This document shows positions 35,079 through 48,614 of a DNA stretch of 48,614 bases, in pieces. The notes beneath the pieces are model-generated. The model was not told the origin of the DNA. It saw only the letters and a program-made list of their open reading frames with translations, and did not search any database. Each line of letters opens with the position of its first letter. Positions within the stretch are counted from its first letter, which is position 1. Source of the stretch: Deltaproteobacteria bacterium (GTDB lineage Bacteria; Myxococcota_A; Polyangia; HGW-17; SLPX01); assembly GCA_021162935.1 (NCBI GenBank), contig JAGGXR010000104.1, positions 1-48,614 of the forward strand, written 5' to 3'. Made by a program: the position numbers and the translations under genes.

Positions 35079-36920
35079 CTAAGGCAGGGTGATGCCGTGG
35101 TTGGCGCAGGTGGTCTTGACCATTCGCTTGTACGACCCGCCCAGGTGCGAAATCGCCCACTTGGCCAATGAGGTCCGATGCGTCTGGCAAGCGCTCATGC
35201 CCACGATGAAGGCCATGCGAGAGCTGGACCTGAGCCGATAGGACTGACGGGACAGGCTGATGGCCTGTGAAAATCGATTGTTTGCGTATGCATTTCTGGC
35301 CCGGGCACCGAGTTCTGCCGCCTTCTGGGCAGGATCCTCGGTGGGCGTCGGGGTCGTCGGAGGTGTCGTGTTCCTCGGCTGGACGTGCGTCGTGTGGGAC
35401 CCATGGTGGCGGGATGTGTTCCTGGCCGCCACGGAGATCGACCGGCCGCAGCTATTTTCAATGGGCTGGAAGCGCGTCTCTTCCGGGTTCAGAGCAATGG
35501 CTTTGCGCGCCACGATCTTCACCTCGGCGCAACGCTTTTGTTTTGCCAGGTCTTTGACCCGTTTGAGGAGCAGCTTGGTATAGTCCTCGACGACCTTGGG
35601 CCAGATGGTCTTCAGGTCTGCCTGGTACACGCTGTCCTTGGGGAAGTTCTTACCGAGCATGGCGGCACGGTTTAGGTGCCCTTTCCTCCATGCCGACACG
35701 AGATTCTGATAGACCGTGGCGTTATGTTGCTCAGCTTTGGCCCGGGTCTTCAGTTGCTGCGCGCGTTCGTCCGCTGGGTGTTGGGACAGGAACGCATCGG
35801 CTTCCGAAATTGCCGTAGTCCAGTTTTTGGCTGCCAGGGCCATGGTGATCTTCGAGTAGTCCAGGGTCTCCACCTTGGGAGAAACCTGACCCGTTCCCGC
35901 ATCGATGGTTCCGCTGCTCACCGAAGGCTGTGTCGTTTCGCTTGCATGCGATCTTTTCTTCGCGTTGGACGGTGGCCAGAACACGATCCCCAGGATGACT
36001 GCCAATACGACGATGCCGCCGATGACCACGTAGAGCCCCATCTTGGAGCTTTTCTTGTGGGCGGTGATGCTTTCGATATCGAATACCTCGCCTGGAGCCA
36101 CGAACCGAAATCGAATGTGTCCCAGGTCGATGATGTCGCCTTTGCGCAGTTCCACTCGATCGTACTTTTCGCCGTTGACCACGATGCCGTTTTGGCTGCC
36201 CAGATCGAAGATCGTGTAGTGGTTGCCGTCCCGCACGATTTTGGCGTGGTGTCGGGAGATGGAGCGATGGTCGATGACGATGTCGTTTTCAGGCATACGA
36301 CCGATGACCATGGTGGCCTTGTTGAGCGGGAATTCGGCGCCGAACATCACATCGCTGAGGACCACGGCCTGGGCGAACTGTTCCGGCTCGGGGCTTGCCA
36401 CAAGATCGGCGCCTTCGGTGGCTGGCACCGGGGCAGGGCCTGCCGGTTTGGCAGGGGCGGGCTCGGGCTGCTCCATGGGCTGGGTCTGCGCCTCCTGGAG
36501 ATCCGCCTCGGCTGGGGGCTGAACGTCGGGCGTCGTCCCTTCGGCCACTTCCTCTGGAACGGGAGCCCGTTCCATGGGAATCGTCTTCATTTCTTCAAAG
36601 GGATCGGGGGCCGATGCGGCCGCGGCGGCTCCGTCGAATTTGAAAGCGAGGGTGTAGTCTCCAATTTGGATGCGGTCGCCCTGGGTAACGGGTACGCGGC
36701 CTCTGATCTTGTTGCCGTTGACCTTGATACCGTTGTAGCTCCCCAGATCCTCGACGTAGATCTGACTCGTCTGTTTGAGGAGCTTCGCGTGGCGCCGGGA
36801 GACATTGCGTTCCGTCAGCCGGATCGTGTTCCCCTCTTTTCGGCCGATGGTGATCTCGTCGCGAATGAGAGGAACGATAGTGGTTTTACCCTCGTCGTCT
36901 TCGATGATGAGTTTGATCAT
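35079..36920 (-). CDS. Transmembrane protein with two FHA domains and a TPR-like region
   Basis: 613 residues from ATG 36920 (no clear ribosome site). FHA domain 1 (about 5-95) has IGRKEGN, NVSRRHAKLL and GSYNGIKVNG; FHA domain 2 (about 190-285) has IGRMPENDIVI, SISRHHAKIV and GSQNGIVVNG, so both keep the phosphothreonine-binding residues. A Pro/Glu-rich linker separates them. A membrane helix (about 295-318: GLYVVIGGIVVLAVILGIVFW) leads to an outside region with TPR-like helices (ALAAKNWTTAISEADAFL, then NRFSQAISLSRQSY). It could relay Ser/Thr phosphorylation in the cytoplasm to envelope assembly; the kinase at 2087 is a candidate partner (inference only). Confidence 0.88.
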   Translation of the reverse strand: MIKLIIEDDEGKTTIVPLIRDEITIGRKEGNTIRLTERNVSRRHAKLLKQTSQIYVEDLGSYNGIKVNGNKIRGRVPVTQGDRIQIGDYTLAFKFDGAAAAASAPDPFEEMKTIPMERAPVPEEVAEGTTPDVQPPAEADLQEAQTQPMEQPEPAPAKPAGPAPVPATEGADLVASPEPEQFAQAVVLSDVMFGAEFPLNKATMVIGRMPENDIVIDHRSISRHHAKIVRDGNHYTIFDLGSQNGIVVNGEKYDRVELRKGDIIDLGHIRFRFVAPGEVFDIESITAHKKSSKMGLYVVIGGIVVLAVILGIVFWPPSNAKKRSHASETTQPSVSSGTIDAGTGQVSPKVETLDYSKITMALAAKNWTTAISEADAFLSQHPADERAQQLKTRAKAEQHNATVYQNLVSAWRKGHLNRAAMLGKNFPKDSVYQADLKTIWPKVVEDYTKLLLKRVKDLAKQKRCAEVKIVARKAIALNPEETRFQPIENSCGRSISVAARNTSRHHGSHTTHVQPRNTTPPTTPTPTEDPAQKAAELGARARNAYANNRFSQAISLSRQSYRLRSSSRMAFIVGMSACQTHRTSLAKWAISHLGGSYKRMVKTTCANHGITLP

Positions 36921-36981
36921 GTTTGGGCACAACCGTGTTGCGGGTTATCTATTGGCACAAGGCTGCCAAATCTGAAGAGAA

Positions 36982-37877: not shown

Positions 37878-38888
37878 GTGTCTGTTCGATTCATCGACGA
37901 GGCTACGATCCATGCGCACGCCGGAAACGGCGGCAATGGATGCCTCGCTTTTCGTAGGGAAAAGCACGTCCCGAGAGGGGGGCCTTCCGGAGGCAACGGC
38001 GGGCGCGGCGGTCACGTGATCCTCGTGGCCGACGAGCGGCTCGATACCCTCATGGATCACGCCTATCGCAGGCATTACAAAGCCGAGCGGGGGGGGCACG
38101 GCGAAGGGGATCTGCGCACTGGTAAACAGGGTGAGGATCTCCTCGTGCCCGTGCCGGTAGGCACAATGGTTTTCGATGTCGAAACAGAGGATCTCGTCGC
38201 AGATCTCACCGAGGACGGCCAGGAGGTCATCGTGGCGAGCGGCGGCCATGGCGGCCGGGGCAACGCCTCCTTCGTCAGTTCCACGAACCGCACTCCACGC
38301 CGGGTCGAACCGGGTGGCCAGGGCGAAGAACGTCTCCTTCGCCTCGTGCTCAAGTCTATGGCCGACGTGGGGCTCATCGGGCTTCCCAACGTGGGCAAGT
38401 CCACCTTTCTGCGCGTCGTCTCCCGGGCCACACCGAAGGTCGCTGCCTATCCCTTCACCACCATGTCGCCCCACTTGGGGATCGCTCAACTCGACGACGA
38501 ACGCCGCTTTGCCCTCGCCGACCTGCCCGGTCTCGTCGAAGGCGCGAGTCAAGGCCGCGGCCTCGGTTTGCGGTTCCTGCGGCACGTCGAGCGCACCCGT
38601 GTTCTCGTCCACATGATCACCGTAGACGAAACAGGGAATATCGACGCCGCCTTCGCCGCCTGGCAGGCGGTCCGGGGCGAACTGGAATCTTATGGGAATG
38701 GCCTGGCCGAAAAGCCCGAAATCCCCATTTTGACCAAAATGGATCTCCCTTGGGTCCGCGATGCCTACGACGAACTCGCCCATCGATTCCGTGGCGAAGA
38801 CAGAACTCTGCTTGCCGTCTCCGCTGCCACCCGCCAGGGCGTGTCCGTCGCCCTCGACGCCATCTGGCACCTGCGTCTTTCCTCCTAA
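37878..38888 (+). CDS. obgE: GTPase Obg (ObgE/CgtA)
   Basis: Ribosome-assembly GTPase of 336 residues. The N-terminal Obg domain shows its Gly-rich loops (HAGNGGNGCLAFRREK, GGPSGGNGGRGGHV, SGGHGGRGNA). The G domain has GLPNVGKS, switch TTMSPHLG, DLPGLVEGA and G4 TKMD. There is no C-terminal OCT domain, as in many Gram-negative forms. The GTG start follows TTGGAGGG and lies 30 bp after rpmA. Binds 50S subunits and links growth to ppGpp. Confidence 0.97.
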   Translation: MSVRFIDEATIHAHAGNGGNGCLAFRREKHVPRGGPSGGNGGRGGHVILVADERLDTLMDHAYRRHYKAERGGHGEGDLRTGKQGEDLLVPVPVGTMVFDVETEDLVADLTEDGQEVIVASGGHGGRGNASFVSSTNRTPRRVEPGGQGEERLLRLVLKSMADVGLIGLPNVGKSTFLRVVSRATPKVAAYPFTTMSPHLGIAQLDDERRFALADLPGLVEGASQGRGLGLRFLRHVERTRVLVHMITVDETGNIDAAFAAWQAVRGELESYGNGLAEKPEIPILTKMDLPWVRDAYDELAHRFRGEDRTLLAVSAATRQGVSVALDAIWHLRLSS

Positions 38889-39562: not shown

Positions 39563-40378
39563 ATGAAGACGTTGCAACTGTTTCTCGGATTGGCGTTGGT
39601 GCTGAGTTCTGTGACGGCGCAGGCGCAGCAGCCTGCGGCTCGGCCTGCGGCGACACCTGCAGCCACACCGGCGGCACAGCCCGCCACGACCGGTGCCGCC
39701 CAACCAGGTACTCCTGCGGTGGCTGGACAACCTGCGGCTGGCGGGCAGCCGGCAACCGCCGGCACCCCTGGTGGCGCGGCTGCATCGGGCGCTCCAGCAC
39801 CGGCTCCAGCAGCCGTGCCAGCACGTCGTCGCCCGGTGAACTACATCATCCGGCTGCGGCAGCTCGCCGAACGGATCGAGGAACTCCAAGAGCGGGTGTC
39901 GCAGACGAAGTACCGCCTCAGTCTCCTCAAGGAGGCCGTGCTCCACGGTACCATCGCGGGTGCCCAGCTCATTGTGGTCCTGGATCATAAAATGGGCAGT
40001 TCGTTCGTGCTTACGAGCGTCCGTTTTGCCATGGACGGAAAGCCCGTGTTCAGCCGTCCGGACATTACGAGCAGCCGGGAAGCCAACCGTCACCACTGGA
40101 CGATCTTCTCTGGTCCGGTGCCTCCCGGTCCCCACGTGATCACGGTGGAGTTGAAGTGGCACGGCAACGGCCACAGGGTATTTGGCTATCTGCGCGGCTA
40201 CAAGTTTCGGGTGCTGTCGAGCTTCTCGTTCAAAGCGGCTGAGGGCACGCAGACCCAGATTCGCGTCATTGCCTATGAGCGCGGTAACAGCATGACCACG
40301 CCGCTTAAAGATCGTCCGACCATCAAGTTCAAGGCGAAGGTCCAGGCCATGACAGCCAAGCCCAAGGGTCGAAAATGA
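39563..40378 (+). CDS. Exported protein with Pro/Ala linker, first gene of Glt-like cluster
   Basis: 271 residues. A clear signal peptide (MKTLQLFLGLALVLSSVTAQA) is followed by about 70 residues of Ala/Pro/Thr/Gly, a coiled coil (RLRQLAERIEELQERVSQTKYRL) and a beta-rich C-terminal domain ending KFKAKVQAMTAKPKGRK. Such proteins can be mis-named dihydrolipoamide acetyltransferase because of the Ala/Pro linker; no lipoyl or catalytic motif is present. Function unknown. Its stop overlaps the next start (ATGA), so the two are translationally coupled. Confidence 0.8.
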   Translation: MKTLQLFLGLALVLSSVTAQAQQPAARPAATPAATPAAQPATTGAAQPGTPAVAGQPAAGGQPATAGTPGGAAASGAPAPAPAAVPARRRPVNYIIRLRQLAERIEELQERVSQTKYRLSLLKEAVLHGTIAGAQLIVVLDHKMGSSFVLTSVRFAMDGKPVFSRPDITSSREANRHHWTIFSGPVPPGPHVITVELKWHGNGHRVFGYLRGYKFRVLSSFSFKAAEGTQTQIRVIAYERGNSMTTPLKDRPTIKFKAKVQAMTAKPKGRK

Positions 40379-42696
40379 AATCGCGCACAACAATAGTGGG
40401 TGTCCTCGCGATCGGGTCGTTCCTTGCGCTCCCAGGCATGGCCGGCAAGGCCCGCGCCAGGAGTCTCGAAGCGATCCAGTCGGAACTGACCGAACTCAAG
40501 GCGTCGTTGGATCAGTATCTGCAGGTCATGCAGGTGCCCCACGCGAAGACGAGTCGGGAGATCACCAAGCGACTGCTCGACGGCATCATCCTGTTTAGGA
40601 TGAAGGACTACGACAAAGCAGCGTCCGTGTTCACCGACCTGGTCACGAATTATCGCACGAGCCGCGAGTACCTCCAGGCCGAGTTCTACTTGGCCGAGAG
40701 CCTGTTCATGCGGCGTGAGTACCACTCTGCCGCCAGGCATTTTCAGGTCGTGGTGGATCGACAGGTGCCCCGCTTCTATCAGAAGGCGCTTCAGCGGCTG
40801 CTGGAGATCGCGTTCAAGACCGGGCGCAGCGATGGCGTGTACAAGCTCGTCGAGGCCGTGCAGCAGGTGCCGGCCAGCCAGCGGGATCCGGCCATGGCGT
40901 ACATCCTGGGCAAGTACTACTACTTTCGCGGCTTGTACGACCGAGCCTGGTCCGTCATGAACTCCATCCCCGCCACGGGGCAGTATGGTCTACGCGCTCA
41001 GTATTTCCTGGGGGTCATTGCCGTCCAAAAGAAGGAAACCAAGAAAGCCAGAGGCATCTTCGCCACTTTGCTCAAGCGGTTTGATTCCATGGGCCGCAAG
41101 GCCGACAGGCTCAAGGGACGGCAGCGCAAGCTCGCCGACCTGACGACCCTGGCGCTGGCGCGGCTTTACTACACGAACGATCGGCCCGACGACGCCATCA
41201 ATCTTTATCGCACCATCTCTCGGCGTTCGGCCTATTTCGAAGAGGCGCTCCATGAACTCGCCTGGGCCTATCTGAGAGCTTGGGAGTTCTATCGCGCCAT
41301 TCATACCCTGGAACTGCTCATGGTGCTGGACCCGAATTCACGGTACGTGTCCGAGTCCAAGTTGATGATCGCCAATCTTCGGGTCGTGGCGAGGCGCTAC
41401 GAGTCCGCACGGAAGCTCTTCCGTCAGACCACGCGTCGCTACCGCCCCATTTATCTCAAGCTTCGGGCGTTGCGCCGCCGTCACATGGTCGCCAGTCGGT
41501 ATCTCGCCTTGCTCGTCAAGCGGGATCAGGGGGCCTTGGACGTGGATTTTCAGCTTCCAAGCGAGGTGGTCAAGGACCTCAGGCGGCAGAGCCAGGTGCG
41601 CAAGGCGCTGCGCGTACTGGGTGACCTGCGCAGCGTGCGGGCCGGCATCAAAGAGTGCGAGCGGCTCTATCATCGGGTGGCCCGCCGCCTCAACTCGTCG
41701 TCTCGGATTTCGGCGTTCCCCGAACTGGCCAAGGGTCGGGCCCATGCCGTGGAGGTCGACATGCGCCTGACGCGCATTCGTCAGGACCTCATGGCCCAGT
41801 TCAAGGGCCAGGTCATGCCCAACGCGACCGGTGCCGAGCGTGCGCAGCTTACCGCGATCCACCAGAAGAAGGCGCGCCTCGAAAAGCTCATCGCCGGCAT
41901 GCCCACCTCGGGTGCTGCTTTCGCGCAGCGCGTGGCAGCCATCCGGAAGATGTATGACGCCAAGAACGCTCGTGCGCACAAGCTTCAGATCCATGTCGAT
42001 GCGCTCGAAGCGACGCTTGCCGCCGTGAAGAATTACTATGAATCCACCAGGGCGCAGCAGAAGCTGTCCGCCGCCTCGGTGGAGGCCAAGGTGAAAAAGT
42101 TGTCCGCCGAGATCGGCGGCCTGCGCGACAAGTTGCGCTCCATCCAGTCCGAGATCGACGACGGTCGCATGTCGGCCGGCGTGGACGATGCCACCATGGC
42201 CCAGGAGCGAAAGGTTCGGCGCGAGTACCAGGCTCTACTGGCTGCCGAGCGCGTCGTGCTGAACGCCATCCAGGCAAGGATGGGCAGCGGTGCGCGGGGG
42301 CAGGCAGCGGCCGTTGAGTCGATCCTCGCCCAGGCGACCGCCGTGCGTAGGGCACTTGATGAGTACAATCGCCGCATCGACGCCATGCTGGCGTTCAAAC
42401 TGGGGCACACCAGGCGTATCCTCGACGAAGAACGGGCCAACATCGCCACCTATAAGAGGCTGGCGGCTGAGTACGGTCCGGATGCGAAAGATGTGGCCGG
42501 CGGCGTGACCGAAGCGGGCTTCCAGAAGGCGGCCCGGGGACTGTATGGCTTGCTGTTGCGTGCCGACATTGGCATCCTGGATGTGGCCTGGGCCCTCAAG
42601 TCCGACGAGTCGGACGTGTGGGTCAAGAATGTTCGGCGGCAGAGCAAGCAGCTTCAGCGACTCGACGAACGATTCCAGGAGGTCAGGCGAAGATGA
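40375..42696 (+). CDS. Exported TPR/coiled-coil protein (GltC-like candidate)
   Basis: 773 residues with a Sec-type signal (MKSRTTIVGVLAIGSFLALPGMAGKARA). Residues about 60-370 contain TPR-like helical pairs (DGIILFRMKDYDKAASVFTDL, YRTISRRSAYFEEALHELAWAY), and about 480-700 form long coiled coils (VEAKVKKLSAEIGGLRDKL). The context of linked TPR proteins and a TPR lipoprotein resembles the Glt envelope cluster of myxobacteria, where GltC is a periplasmic TPR protein; I assign it by gene order and architecture, not by alignment. Coupled at both ends by ATGA overlaps. Confidence 0.75.
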   Translation: MKSRTTIVGVLAIGSFLALPGMAGKARARSLEAIQSELTELKASLDQYLQVMQVPHAKTSREITKRLLDGIILFRMKDYDKAASVFTDLVTNYRTSREYLQAEFYLAESLFMRREYHSAARHFQVVVDRQVPRFYQKALQRLLEIAFKTGRSDGVYKLVEAVQQVPASQRDPAMAYILGKYYYFRGLYDRAWSVMNSIPATGQYGLRAQYFLGVIAVQKKETKKARGIFATLLKRFDSMGRKADRLKGRQRKLADLTTLALARLYYTNDRPDDAINLYRTISRRSAYFEEALHELAWAYLRAWEFYRAIHTLELLMVLDPNSRYVSESKLMIANLRVVARRYESARKLFRQTTRRYRPIYLKLRALRRRHMVASRYLALLVKRDQGALDVDFQLPSEVVKDLRRQSQVRKALRVLGDLRSVRAGIKECERLYHRVARRLNSSSRISAFPELAKGRAHAVEVDMRLTRIRQDLMAQFKGQVMPNATGAERAQLTAIHQKKARLEKLIAGMPTSGAAFAQRVAAIRKMYDAKNARAHKLQIHVDALEATLAAVKNYYESTRAQQKLSAASVEAKVKKLSAEIGGLRDKLRSIQSEIDDGRMSAGVDDATMAQERKVRREYQALLAAERVVLNAIQARMGSGARGQAAAVESILAQATAVRRALDEYNRRIDAMLAFKLGHTRRILDEERANIATYKRLAAEYGPDAKDVAGGVTEAGFQKAARGLYGLLLRADIGILDVAWALKSDESDVWVKNVRRQSKQLQRLDERFQEVRRR

Positions 42697-45600
42697 ACGG
42701 GGCGGCATCGATGAAAGTCGGCCGGATCCTCGGTGGGCTGGTCTTGGCGACGGGGGTGTTTCTACTTGGTTCATCGCGAGCCACGGCGCAGACGAGACTC
42801 GTGCGGCCTACGCCGTATTCCCAAGCAGAGTTGAACGAGATCGCCAAGCTGCCGGGTATCGTGCAGGTCTATGGTTGGGGCGTGCAGGTCTTCCAGTCTT
42901 TGACCGAGCACATCATCGAGCGGACCTATCTGAACGAAAAGGCGAAGATCAAGAACGCCTATTTGGGCGACATCGAAAAGTCTCGCCGGAACACCGAAGC
43001 GAGGCGTCTGGAAGCCGTCAAGGAATTCGAGGCCTGGATCAAGCGGCATCCGAGCGATAAGAAGTGGACCCCGGACGTCCTCTTTAGGCTGGCCGAATTG
43101 TATTATGAAAAGGCCACCGTGGATTTCCAGTATGCCCAGGTCCAGTACCAGGAGACTGTGACCCGGATCCGGCGTCAGGCCCGCAAGCTCGGCCGCGAGT
43201 TGCCCGAGCCGCCCGAGCCCGAGATCGACTATACGGTCCCGATTTCCTACTACAAGCGGATCATCCGGGAATTTCCCCATTACGAAAACATTGACGTGGC
43301 CTATTACCTCCTCGGTTATTGCCTGCGTGAAATGGCCAAGCAGGCCGAAGAGATGGTCTCGGACGAAGAAATCGAAAACGAGACGCCCGGCGCGCCGTCC
43401 AAAGCTCGTGTGTTGGCGGCCAAGGCCCGTCAGGCTTTCTTGGCCTTGGTTTGTGCGAATCGTTACAAGCCTCTCGATTCGCCCACCGAGCCCTCCATGC
43501 CCCCAGAGCTCGAATCTGCCCTGAATGAGGATGAACAGACCGGCGAGCAGAAGTTGGATCTGGGGCGGTTTGATCCGTACAAGGGGTGTCGCCCTGTCGT
43601 GTCCCTGTCCAAGTTTACGGGCATGGCGCTCAAGAAGCGTCAGGCGCTGCTGTCGCAGGCTTGGTTCATCGTGGGCGAGCAGCACTTCGACGCCGAGCCC
43701 ATCGTGACCCTGAATCAACAGGAAAAGGACCAGCTCAAGGCCGAGTTTTACAAGCACCGCAGCAAGGAGCAGTACATCAACGACTACCAGAGGGTGCTGG
43801 CAGAAAAGAAGGAGCGGAATATCAAGGTCCACAACTACTACGCCATTTCCGCATACACGCGCGTCATCCAGAACTTCAAGAAGGCCGAGGAATACCCAGA
43901 CGCCCTCTACAAGCGGGCTTGGACCTATTTTCGCGTCAATATGTACGAAAAGGCCCTCGACGAGTTCGACCGGTTGCTCCTCGAATCCAAGGATGAGGCC
44001 CTCCGGGACAACGCCGTTCGTTACGTCGCCCTGTGCGCCTATTATCAGCGGGATCAGGACGACAAGTTTGCCTATCTGCTCAACCACTACAAGGCCAAGG
44101 GGGGGCTCCACGACCCCAAGGGCCCCAAGGGCAAGTACGCGTACATCAAGCGGGCCTTCCAGGAACTCGCCAAGATTTTTTATGAAGACGCGGCGCCGCC
44201 GCCCGACACGCCCGGCCCTCAGAATTACCGTGCCACGGATCTCCTTGCAGCGTTCAAGGTGTATCAGTGGATGATGGGGCAGGCCGGGTTCGGAGCGGAC
44301 CGACCGGGCGAGACGGATCTGGACTGGAAGTACTACAAGGGCAGGGCCGAGGTCCAAAAGGCGATCATCGACATCGTGTATCTGCTCACCATCAACAACG
44401 AGGTGCAAAAAGAATGGCCTCGTCGGAAATACTTCGAGGTGAAGCGGCAGGCCTTCAATCGGTTTTCGACCTATCGTTCCAGCCCCCACAAGGACTTTGC
44501 GCGCGAGTACGAAAAAATGTGGGGCGACGACGGCAAGGTCAAAGAGGCCCTGTCGAGTCTGCGGCAGTCCAGTCTGTCCGAGGTGGCGAACGAGTACTAC
44601 ATCCTCGGCCGTCGGGCCTGGGATGCCAAGCAGGTTCAGGTGAATGCCCTGCTCAAGGAGATCGTGGGTCTGGTGTCCCACCTGTCCGATCTCCAGGGTT
44701 CGGGCAACCAGGAGGAACTCGCCAAGACGCAGGAAACCCTCGCCCAGAAGCGGCAGGAACTCGTCACTGCGGCCAAGTCGTACCAGCGCTACTTTTCTCA
44801 GGCGGTTCGGTCCTACGACGTGGTGATCACCGATGCGCAGTTCAAGGACACGATGGAGGCCTACAAGGCGCTCTACTTCAAGGCGGACTGCCTGTTCTAC
44901 ATGCACGACTATCTCAAGGCGGCCGAGGCCTACAAGGCGGCTGCCGATTCCAAGATTAGCAATCGGTATCGCCCCCAGGCGCTCCAGGGCCGGGTGGACT
45001 CCTATCAGCTTTATAATGATCTGAATGTGGTCATGCCTCCTGCCCCGGACCCGGTGCGCGACAAGGACCTCGTTCCAAAAAAGATTCCCGGGTCGGTGCT
45101 CGCATGGCATAAGGCCATGGCGGATCTGCTCGCCACCGAGAAGAACAAGGTGCACGAGGCTGCCTACAGCTTCCTTGTTGCCTACACGTATTATCGCTAT
45201 GCCCATGCGGACGTGGCCTACAAGTTGCTGTGGGGCTTTTTGCAGAAGCACTGCAACACGCGCGACGCATTCTATGCCACCAAGGCCCTGATGGCCATGG
45301 CGCTCATCAAGAACGCCAAGGAGGGCAACAGCCTCACCTCCTTGAAGGGCCTCGACGTCGAGCGTCAGAAGCTGGCCAAGGCCCAATGCGGCATTCGGGT
45401 CACCTTCCCGCCCAAGACTCCCAAGAAAGCTATGGAGGACTATGCGGCCAAGGTGAAAGACTTCTACAAGAAGATGCTCGGCCTGGCGGCCGACATCCGC
45501 ATGAACCGCGCCGACGCCCTCTACAAAGAGGCCGTATCGGCCAAGGGCAGCGCCAAGGAGGCGAAGTACCTGGCCGCGGCGCGAGAACTGGAAAGCATCG

Positions 45601-47177
45601 CCAGGCGGTACCCGAATTCCCCCAAGGCCGCTCTTTCGCTCTACTACGCAGCAGACGGCTACGAGAGGACCAAGCGGTACCGCAAGGCCAAGGCGCTCTA
45701 TGAAGAAATTGTCAAGAAGCCGGCCTTCCGCAAGCAGATCGAGCATGTGAAAGAGGAGGTCTGCAGCGGCGGTGGTCACAAGCACTGCCGAACCGTGACC
45801 CGCAACAAGCTGGACAATGTGCTAAACTTCCTGGCTCGCGCCGCCTGGCGCGCCATGGAATTCGACCAGGCCATGCGGTACTATGGCCAGCTCGCCAAGG
45901 GAAAGATCAAGGTGGACGATGCGGTGATCCGCGTGAATTCCTACTACTGGTATGCCCGCCTGCTACGTATTTATGACAAGCCCAGGCCGGCGGTTGCCTA
46001 TTTCATGAAGTACTACGACGAGATCGGCAAGGTCATAGCCAGCCTGAGGCGCAAGTCGGCCAAGGCAACGGACCCGCTGGACAAGAAAGACTATGATGCG
46101 CAGTTGACCGAGGCGCTCCAGTTCCAGATGGAGGTGTTCTACGAGATCGGCACCATCTATCGCCGGCTCAACGACATTCGTGGTATGGAGCGCTACTATG
46201 GGCAGTATATCCAGCATGTTTCCAGCATGCTGGGATCCAAGCCTACGAGCACGCCCAAATACTATGCGTCCCATGCGAGCGATCGCGCCGCCGCCATGAA
46301 GATGATGGAGGCCCTTCATCAGCTCGATGTGGCCTATCGCGGGCGCAGACGGATGAGCAAGGCGCGGCAGTACGAGCGCAAGATCGTCGAGACCTTCGAT
46401 CGGTACCACATGCCCAAGGGCGAAAATGTGGCTGCCGACTATGCCGCCGAGGTCGCCTTCCAGGACGTGGAACGCGATTATCGACGGTTCATGGCGCAAA
46501 AGTTGAAGATTCGAGGTCTGTCTCTTCACGTCAAGCTGCGGAAGGGCATCAAGACCCGTGAGTTGCTCGACGGGATGTGTGAGCTGATGGGCTGGGGCGT
46601 GAATCGGCGCACCCACAAACCTTGCAAGGGCAAGGCCATGCCCATGCTCCGCTCGGTCGTCAACCCATACCTGGACCAGGTGAACAAGCTGTCGAAACGG
46701 TTCTACAGCGACATCGGCCTCAAGTACCTGAGCCCCAAGTGGGTGCTCGCCGTGCGGGCCAAGATGGGCCAGATGTTCGCCAAGGCGGCGGCCGACCTGG
46801 ATCGGCTTCCCGTGCCGCCCGAAGTAAAGAAGTTTTGGGTCGTGTTTTGGGCCTTCGTCCAGAAGTACAAGGTTTATCCCAAATACAAGGCCCTGTTTCA
46901 GAAGCTTCTGGGTGTCTATGAGATCGACGTGGACGACGAGGACACGGATCAGGATGCGCTGCTGGATGCTTACAAGGAAAAGGCGTTCGTGGCCATTCGT
47001 AAGAACGCGAAGACCCTGCGGGACGAGGCGATCCGAAACTATATCGAGGGCCTCAAACTCGCACGGACCATGGGGATCTCTTCCAAGTGGACCAGGGAGA
47101 TGCGCAAGGGTCTGAACACGATCGACCCGGACCGGTTCCCATTCGTCCACGACGCCAAGGTGGCCAGCACGCGATAG
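42693..47177 (+). CDS. Giant exported TPR protein (GltD/AgmU-like candidate)
   Basis: 1494 residues starting at ATG 42693, which overlaps the preceding stop (ATGA); a longer upstream frame is rejected. A signal peptide (LGGLVLATGVFLLGSSRATA) leads to an almost continuous array of TPR-type helices over the whole length: FRLAELYYEKATVDF, YKRAWTYFRVNMYEKALDEFDRLL, YKALYFKADCLFYMHDYLKAAEAY and others. Many have the (W)A..Y.....Y..A...F pattern. Such size and layout recall AgmU/GltD, a periplasmic TPR scaffold in Myxococcus gliding, but this species need not glide. The second and third genes of the cluster probably form a periplasmic scaffold with the lipoprotein after it. Confidence 0.8.
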   Translation: MNGAASMKVGRILGGLVLATGVFLLGSSRATAQTRLVRPTPYSQAELNEIAKLPGIVQVYGWGVQVFQSLTEHIIERTYLNEKAKIKNAYLGDIEKSRRNTEARRLEAVKEFEAWIKRHPSDKKWTPDVLFRLAELYYEKATVDFQYAQVQYQETVTRIRRQARKLGRELPEPPEPEIDYTVPISYYKRIIREFPHYENIDVAYYLLGYCLREMAKQAEEMVSDEEIENETPGAPSKARVLAAKARQAFLALVCANRYKPLDSPTEPSMPPELESALNEDEQTGEQKLDLGRFDPYKGCRPVVSLSKFTGMALKKRQALLSQAWFIVGEQHFDAEPIVTLNQQEKDQLKAEFYKHRSKEQYINDYQRVLAEKKERNIKVHNYYAISAYTRVIQNFKKAEEYPDALYKRAWTYFRVNMYEKALDEFDRLLLESKDEALRDNAVRYVALCAYYQRDQDDKFAYLLNHYKAKGGLHDPKGPKGKYAYIKRAFQELAKIFYEDAAPPPDTPGPQNYRATDLLAAFKVYQWMMGQAGFGADRPGETDLDWKYYKGRAEVQKAIIDIVYLLTINNEVQKEWPRRKYFEVKRQAFNRFSTYRSSPHKDFAREYEKMWGDDGKVKEALSSLRQSSLSEVANEYYILGRRAWDAKQVQVNALLKEIVGLVSHLSDLQGSGNQEELAKTQETLAQKRQELVTAAKSYQRYFSQAVRSYDVVITDAQFKDTMEAYKALYFKADCLFYMHDYLKAAEAYKAAADSKISNRYRPQALQGRVDSYQLYNDLNVVMPPAPDPVRDKDLVPKKIPGSVLAWHKAMADLLATEKNKVHEAAYSFLVAYTYYRYAHADVAYKLLWGFLQKHCNTRDAFYATKALMAMALIKNAKEGNSLTSLKGLDVERQKLAKAQCGIRVTFPPKTPKKAMEDYAAKVKDFYKKMLGLAADIRMNRADALYKEAVSAKGSAKEAKYLAAARELESIARRYPNSPKAALSLYYAADGYERTKRYRKAKALYEEIVKKPAFRKQIEHVKEEVCSGGGHKHCRTVTRNKLDNVLNFLARAAWRAMEFDQAMRYYGQLAKGKIKVDDAVIRVNSYYWYARLLRIYDKPRPAVAYFMKYYDEIGKVIASLRRKSAKATDPLDKKDYDAQLTEALQFQMEVFYEIGTIYRRLNDIRGMERYYGQYIQHVSSMLGSKPTSTPKYYASHASDRAAAMKMMEALHQLDVAYRGRRRMSKARQYERKIVETFDRYHMPKGENVAADYAAEVAFQDVERDYRRFMAQKLKIRGLSLHVKLRKGIKTRELLDGMCELMGWGVNRRTHKPCKGKAMPMLRSVVNPYLDQVNKLSKRFYSDIGLKYLSPKWVLAVRAKMGQMFAKAAADLDRLPVPPEVKKFWVVFWAFVQKYKVYPKYKALFQKLLGVYEIDVDDEDTDQDALLDAYKEKAFVAIRKNAKTLRDEAIRNYIEGLKLARTMGISSKWTREMRKGLNTIDPDRFPFVHDAKVASTR

Positions 47178-47333
47178 CCGCCTGGGGGCGGATGAGGGTG
47201 GTGCCCCAATCGAAACGGCGACTGCTGGCACGCACGAACGGGACAGACGCAACGAATCCGGCTATGAGCCGGTGGACGACGATACGATACGAACAGGATG
47301 TGCCGGCCCTGGGTCGGCGGACGGTGAGTCAAA
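47178..47333. other. Gap before the TPR lipoprotein gene
   Basis: 156 bp with no gene. No convincing promoter or terminator is seen; G+C-rich strings just after the stop (CCGCCTGGGGGCGG) could form a short hairpin but lack a T-run. Confidence 0.4.
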
Positions 47334-48614
47334 GTGGCACGAACAATACGACAATCGAGCCGATACCTGGGAGCCTGCCTGATTGCCGCAAGCCTTGTGC
47401 TGGCGGCCGGCTGTTCGAAGAAAAAGAAGAAGACCACGCCGAAGACGCCGGCGGCCCGGCCCGGGGCGAGGACCTCGGGGGCGTCGGGGGGCGCAACGGC
47501 GCCAAAGGTGGCGGGCGGCGATCAGGTCCAGCCTTCGGGAACTTCGGGAACGGGATCCGATGAGGCCGGCGGCGCTGCCGGCGGCGCGGCTTCGGGTTCG
47601 GTCGGCGGAGCTGCCGCGCGCCCTGGCGAAAATCCAGCGGTGGTCAAGCAGCGCAACATGGCCGCTGCCAGGCGCGCTCTGTCCCAGGGCAGCTATGAGC
47701 GGGCCATTGCGCTCGCCAAGTCGGTCTTGGCCGTGGACGAAAAGAACGTGCCCGCCATGGTCGTGGTGGCGCACGCCTACTTCAAAGAAGGCAAGATCGA
47801 ATTCTGCCGCGCGGTGCTCGGTTTCATTGCGGCCATCGACCCGAACAACGCCCACGGCTTCTATTTGGCCGGTTACTTGGCGTTGCACGACGGCGAAAAC
47901 CGCAAGGCGCGCGCCTTTTTCGAGAAGGCGGTGGAGAAGAACCCGAATTTTCCCGATGCCTGGAGCATGCTGTGTTCCTGGTACACCGAGGGAAAGAATT
48001 GGCGCGAAAAGAACCCGAAACGCGTCGGGAAGGACGCCTACACAGCCTGCAGTAAGGCCGTGCAGCTACGCCCTTCCGACCACCGGAGCATGCTGAATCT
48101 CGGCACCGTGTATCGTGGCCTGGCTGGCGACTGTCGGGCCGGGGGCATCAGAACCTGCGAGGCTCGGAAGGTGGCCTGTCGGGGCGGTTCCTGCGAGCAG
48201 AGTTACACGTCGTGCCGCAAGGGGGTGCTGAACCGCTGCCGCCGCGTGGAGATCCAGTACTATCGCAGCGCGCGACAGGCGTATCTGAGGGCGTCGGACC
48301 TGTACCAGAAGGCGATGCGTTCCGCTGGCAAGCAGCCTGGGCCGTACGCCCCGGCGCTCTTCGATCTCGGCGTCCTGTACATGGATGCGCCAGTCATGCC
48401 CGGCGAAACGACCATCTCGCGGTTGAACAAGGCCAAGGCCTATCTGAGGCATTATCTCCAGGCTGCAGATCCGCGGGCTGCCCGGCGGGATCAGACCACG
48501 GTGCGCAATTTGACCAAGCAGATCGACATGTTCATCCAGGCGGAGAAGGCAAAGGAAGAGGCCCGCAAGGCCCAGCAACAGGCGGCCAGGCAGGCGCGTC
48601 CACAGGGTGGTTGA
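47334..48614 (+). CDS. TPR lipoprotein (GltE/AglT-like)
   Basis: 426 residues ending exactly at the right edge of the window. GTG start with a weak ribosome site; signal peptide with a good lipobox LAAGC (Cys27) followed by KKKKK and a Gly/Ala/Ser/Thr linker to about 105. TPR pairs follow (NMAAARRALSQGSYERAIALAKSVL, PAMVVVAHAYFKEGKIEFCRAVLGFIAAIDPNN, FYLAGYLALHDGENRKARAFFEKAVEKNP). A Cys-rich insert (CRAGGIRTCEARKVACRGGSC, about residues 262-302) is unusual. The C-terminal 30 residues are Lys/Glu/Ala/Gln. The pattern fits the TPR lipoprotein of the Glt cluster; TolQ/TolR-like partners would be expected further right, outside the window. Confidence 0.85.
   Translation: MARTIRQSSRYLGACLIAASLVLAAGCSKKKKKTTPKTPAARPGARTSGASGGATAPKVAGGDQVQPSGTSGTGSDEAGGAAGGAASGSVGGAAARPGENPAVVKQRNMAAARRALSQGSYERAIALAKSVLAVDEKNVPAMVVVAHAYFKEGKIEFCRAVLGFIAAIDPNNAHGFYLAGYLALHDGENRKARAFFEKAVEKNPNFPDAWSMLCSWYTEGKNWREKNPKRVGKDAYTACSKAVQLRPSDHRSMLNLGTVYRGLAGDCRAGGIRTCEARKVACRGGSCEQSYTSCRKGVLNRCRRVEIQYYRSARQAYLRASDLYQKAMRSAGKQPGPYAPALFDLGVLYMDAPVMPGETTISRLNKAKAYLRHYLQAADPRAARRDQTTVRNLTKQIDMFIQAEKAKEEARKAQQQAARQARPQGG

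Follow-up and report, generated by a model that had tools for sequence, protein, structure and literature searches.

In Myxococcus xanthus, the Agl-Nfs machinery carries the Exo spore-coat polymer around the spore; it moves independently of Exo secretion, and the export sites do not colocalise with NfsD (PMC3858216). Another Glt-type set, the G4 cluster (MXAN_1924-1915; Luciano et al. 2011), includes the GltD homologue MXAN_1922, in which polar mutations left motility intact (PMC3169522). MXAN_1916 and MXAN_1915 are WzpB and WzaB of the BPS pathway (PMC9603273, PMC7310880), a pair that represents the translocons made of an OPX protein and an 18-stranded barrel (Schwabe 2022, Saidi 2022). MXAN_1915 has been called orphan-like (PMC7310880) and was placed outside any polysaccharide synthesis cluster (PMC7484181). 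Among the papers accessible without subscription, we found none that links MXAN_1922 or G4 with WzaB, and we found no description of a Glt-type complex as a partner in the literature on OPX/18-stranded barrel translocons.

Here we analysed a window of 48,614 bp that corresponds to an entire contig (C69, one of the 168 of its genome). A group of four genes, designated A to D, occupies its right end, the terminal three bases being the TGA stop codon of gene D. The relevant features are:

37878-38888, plus strand: Obg GTPase gene (PF01018, 201 bits)
39563-40378, plus strand: gene A, 271 aa, with a signal peptide and an Ala/Pro-rich linker of ~65 residues; marker gene of the cluster type
40375-42696, plus strand: gene B, 773 aa, GltC-like, with a signal peptide, TPRs at ~62-380 and a C-terminal coiled coil
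42693-47177, plus strand: gene C, 1494 aa, GltD-like periplasmic TPR protein (from profile alignment and tree)
47334-48614, plus strand: gene D, 426 aa, GltE-like TPR lipoprotein, with a GTG start, the lipobox LAAGC and Ser at +2

The original prediction described four exported proteins in a row, the first three coupled by ATGA overlaps, and all of these elements are present with the sizes and coordinates given above. The A/B and B/C overlaps were read in the sequence at 40375-40378 and 42693-42696, type I signal peptides were recognised by inspection in A, B and C, and a Pfam search detected TPRs in B, C and D. The start of gene C was taken as the ATG at 42693; the open reading frame tool instead begins at a GTG at 42618. 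The recurrence of the order A-B-C-D in about 100 loci of other genomes shows that these open reading frames do not lie together by chance. Obg is the conserved left neighbour in many relatives, in the order Obg-A-B-C, and the GTPase itself is probably not part of the complex. Left of Obg, the minus strand encodes a protein with two FHA domains (35079-36932), and a similar two-FHA protein is also found left of Obg in a genome of the same family (G001, locus L055).

Gene A, which is present in 137 of the 188 genomes sampled from the phylum, belongs to no named family, and profile searches returned no relevant Pfam or NCBIfam match. Its predicted structure (mean pLDDT 77.5) comprises a long helix (residues 91-127) followed by a beta-sandwich (134-262). 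When the model was compared with known structures, the best matches (Z 9.0) were the PepT2 extracellular domain and transthyretins, broad beta-sandwich matches that are too general to assign a function from the fold.

Compared with the Agl-Glt machinery of M. xanthus, the cluster type of the window shares the GltC, GltD, GltE, GltF (CglF) and GltG families as well as a TolQ/TolR-type motor. Gene B scores 79.8 bits against the GltC profile NF033756 (E 1.8e-22), for an equivalog cut-off of 450. The profile built from C-type proteins aligns collinearly across 965 columns (hhalign E 3e-128) with that of GltD proteins from Glt/Nfs-type loci, a term that we use for GltD-family loci lacking gene A. 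Gene D matches the GltE profile NF033758 weakly, with 22.5 bits for a cut-off of 225, and its Myxococcus orthologue reaches 103.6 bits. The Myxococcus orthologues of the genes further downstream match CglF, which we take to be the same protein as GltF, with 32.6 bits (E 5.9e-8), and GltG with 168.8 bits. All cluster proteins stay below the NCBIfam gliding equivalog cut-offs (GltC 450, GltE 225, GltG 650). The long collinear profile alignment and the conserved gene order rule out generic TPR similarity as the sole likeness. The resemblance to Glt that had been predicted is therefore upheld by the GltC match, the GltD alignment and the GltC and GltD trees presented below, and we conclude from these comparisons that the window cluster is a genuine Glt homologue. 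In one genome (G046, L067:10168-16041), a single open frame of 1957 aa matches B, C and D, which suggests that the scaffold genes have fused there.

A look to the right of the window for TolQ, TolR and GltJ-type genes had been proposed as a check. Another contig of the same genome, C163, opens with a gene for a 114-aa exported protein, followed by TolQ (PF01618, 86.3 bits), two TolR genes (PF02472, 42.1 and 32.1 bits) and a gene for a GltG-like protein (NF033760, 40.2 bits for a cut-off of 650). The TonB-like partner of the cluster is closest to GltG, and no GltJ-type gene was found as such. Further along C163 are a nucleotidyltransferase gene and, on the opposite strand, genes for a glycosyltransferase, a Wzx-type flippase and a hexapeptide transferase. 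A search for sequence overlap between the ends of C69 and C163 found none. The two contigs nevertheless likely adjoin in the genome, because the C163 TolQ shares 77-78% identity with its counterparts in the clusters of two relatives from the same taxonomic order, G002 and G005 (next best, 32%), and because G002 carries the whole run A-B-C-D-f-TolQ-TolR-TolR-E-F-barrel-Wza on a single contig, while G005 has C-D-f-TolQ-TolR on a contig that begins at gene C. Motor-type genes, whose absence next door would have spoken against the original prediction, are hence found on C163 and, contiguous with A-D, in G002. Together, these gene orders support the assignment of the TolQ/TolR/TolR motor and of the GltG-like protein to the window cluster. 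This GltG-like protein type aligns to GltG only from about residue 160-220 onward, and differs from it in lacking the N-terminal FHA part.

At the membrane Asp site, the two TolR/ExbD-like subunits are not alike. In the first, almost every cluster copy has Asn at this position (PIMNL or a similar motif), the exceptions with Asp being L168 and L146; in the second, Asp is kept in all copies where the stretch is shown. The two genes of the window genome lie at L011:1595-2904, on C163. A-type clusters with the motor genes within the run also occur in records labelled Bdellovibrio sp. and Candidatus Hydrogenedens (L168, L208).

The window genome encodes a second Glt-type set on contig C4 (L010:1-9448), which includes a GltC-like protein (239.5 bits with NF033756), a GltD-like protein, a GltE-like protein (66.5 bits) and an FHA-bearing GltG-like protein (207.9 bits), the gene of the last being cut by the contig end. 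In a tree of 39 GltD-family rows, the 21 from gene-A loci, including the window, separate from the 18 others, including C4, with an SH-aLRT support of 100; for one of the 21 (G005) the contig starts at gene C, gene A itself being unseen. A tree of 36 GltC-family rows gives the identical split, with a support of 100. Both trees are quick and unrooted, so that the ancestral character suggested in the original prediction stays conjectural, and in them the taxonomic order of the window sits on a long stem. The phylogeny proposed as a check thus separates the window copies from the Glt/Nfs copies in both families, and defines the window type as a clade distinct from Agl-Glt that is accompanied by gene A. 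Because the two copies fall on opposite sides of the trees, a simple duplication of the C4 cluster is ruled out, and a single-sequence search of the genome found no second copy of the 1494-aa gene C protein. A third, deep GltD branch is formed by L285:8759-14152 (G253) and L277 (G054); a weak gene-A match (36 bits) near the G253 copy suggests a distant relative of A in another cluster type.

In M. xanthus AM003, the gene order is MglB-MglA-A-B-C-D. Since MglA is MXAN_1925 (PMC4316618, PMC3441718), this order makes gene C MXAN_1922, and on sequence grounds gene C of the window is its orthologue, that is, the orthologue of the GltD homologue of G4. In Myxococcus sp. RHSTA-1-4 and in Archangium, the run reaches the barrel and Wza genes, and gene counting in these species puts them at MXAN_1916 and MXAN_1915; AM003 has a contig break between D and WzpB, and contiguity in M. 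xanthus rests on locus tags and on the sister species. The window and G4 have in common gene A, the order A-B-C-D and the GltC/GltD clade. They differ in their left neighbour, Obg in the window and MglA/MglB in M. xanthus; motor genes are part of the window cluster type, and the window genome has its barrel and OPX genes on another contig (C152). Gene A is immediately preceded by mglA, which encodes the polarity GTPase, in Myxococcus, Pyxidicoccus and Archangium (L202:7516-9420, L194, L198, L174, L180), and by Obg in many other lineages.

These data bear on whether the cluster is the gliding machine of its host, or part of it, with slime or another polymer serving as adhesive. The Glt core protein families, the AglRQS-like motor and the position of the Myxococcus cluster behind mglBA, the gliding polarity switch, are what such a machine would be expected to show. 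However, both trees place the window genes apart from the Glt/Nfs clade, the genome holds a separate copy of that clade on C4, and motility survived the polar MXAN_1922 mutations, so that we regard a role in gliding as quite improbable.

In relatives, the run continues with E (GltG-like), F (an exported protein of ~200 aa), G (a BBP2-type outer-membrane barrel) and H (a Poly_export/SLBB protein of the Wza type); F, G and H are additions of these relatives to the set known from Agl-Glt. A Wzp-like barrel and/or Wza was found downstream in 22 of the 25 A-type loci for which 12 kb or more of downstream sequence was available, a non-independent sample in which related species are counted separately, and at ~20 kb in one more. 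By contrast, none of the 17 Glt/Nfs-type loci, read over ~9 kb on either side where contigs allowed, contains F, G or H. The linkage with export genes thus holds across the phylum, and it places a short OPX protein and a barrel, as in the WzaB/WzpB translocons, at the end of the cluster. In the window genome, F, the barrel and Wza are on C152, with the barrel/OPX pair at 46-48 kb of 65.5 kb, beside a Wzy-like gene; they do not adjoin the GltG-like gene on C163, and the link is not local here.

This dispersed arrangement is also what one would expect if the export genes were neighbours without a functional tie and the cluster encoded an envelope maintenance complex resembling Tol-Pal. The TolQ/TolR-type motor, the weak YbgF/CpoB matches of the TPR proteins and the conserved adjacency of Obg in many lineages agree with such a complex, yet neither TolB nor Pal was matched among the cluster proteins, and the contrast between A-type and Glt/Nfs-type loci in export genes argues for a functional tie. 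We therefore hold a Tol-Pal-like function to be unlikely.

We consider it probable, from gene content and order, that A-D constitute the left half of a G4-type, Glt-like, motor-linked envelope complex that serves polysaccharide export. In the arrangement that we infer, the TolQ/TolR/TolR proton-driven motor and the GltG-like TonB_C protein encoded on C163 would reside in the inner membrane, the GltC-like and GltD-like TPR scaffolds and the linker protein A would assemble in the periplasm, and the GltE-like lipoprotein D would sit at the outer membrane. The work of the motor would be coupled to the export channel formed by the short OPX (Wza-type) protein and the beta-barrel, and the complex may either aid secretion or move and organise the polymer once exported, in the way that Agl-Nfs handles the spore coat polymer. 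The original prediction of a job other than motility gains indirect support from the orthology to G4 and from the linkage with export genes.

A narrower form of this reading, in which the complex would capture and distribute the polymer on the surface after secretion without energising export, is a possibility to which we give limited weight. Nfs/Exo provides a published case in which a Glt-type complex acts on a polysaccharide that has been secreted, and the independence of Agl-Nfs motion from Exo secretion, with export sites apart from NfsD, is in agreement with it. Unlike the Glt/Nfs-type loci examined, however, where exporter genes are absent within ~9 kb, most window-type relatives carry the barrel and OPX genes within the run itself, pointing to a closer association with the exporter.

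In its broader form, polysaccharide export by A-type complexes would mean that secretion through the OPX/barrel channel is powered or steered by a proton-driven motor of the Tol/Agl type together with a Glt-like scaffold spanning the periplasm, and that the gliding and spore-coat machines are offshoots of a polymer-handling complex, an idea that we advance only tentatively. As of the 2011 literature, no function was known for G4 or for the conserved Glt core that non-gliding bacteria possess. Through gene order, the puzzle of G4 and that of the orphan-like WzaB (MXAN_1915) merge into one testable idea, namely that G4 may be the motor-linked envelope complex belonging to that exporter.
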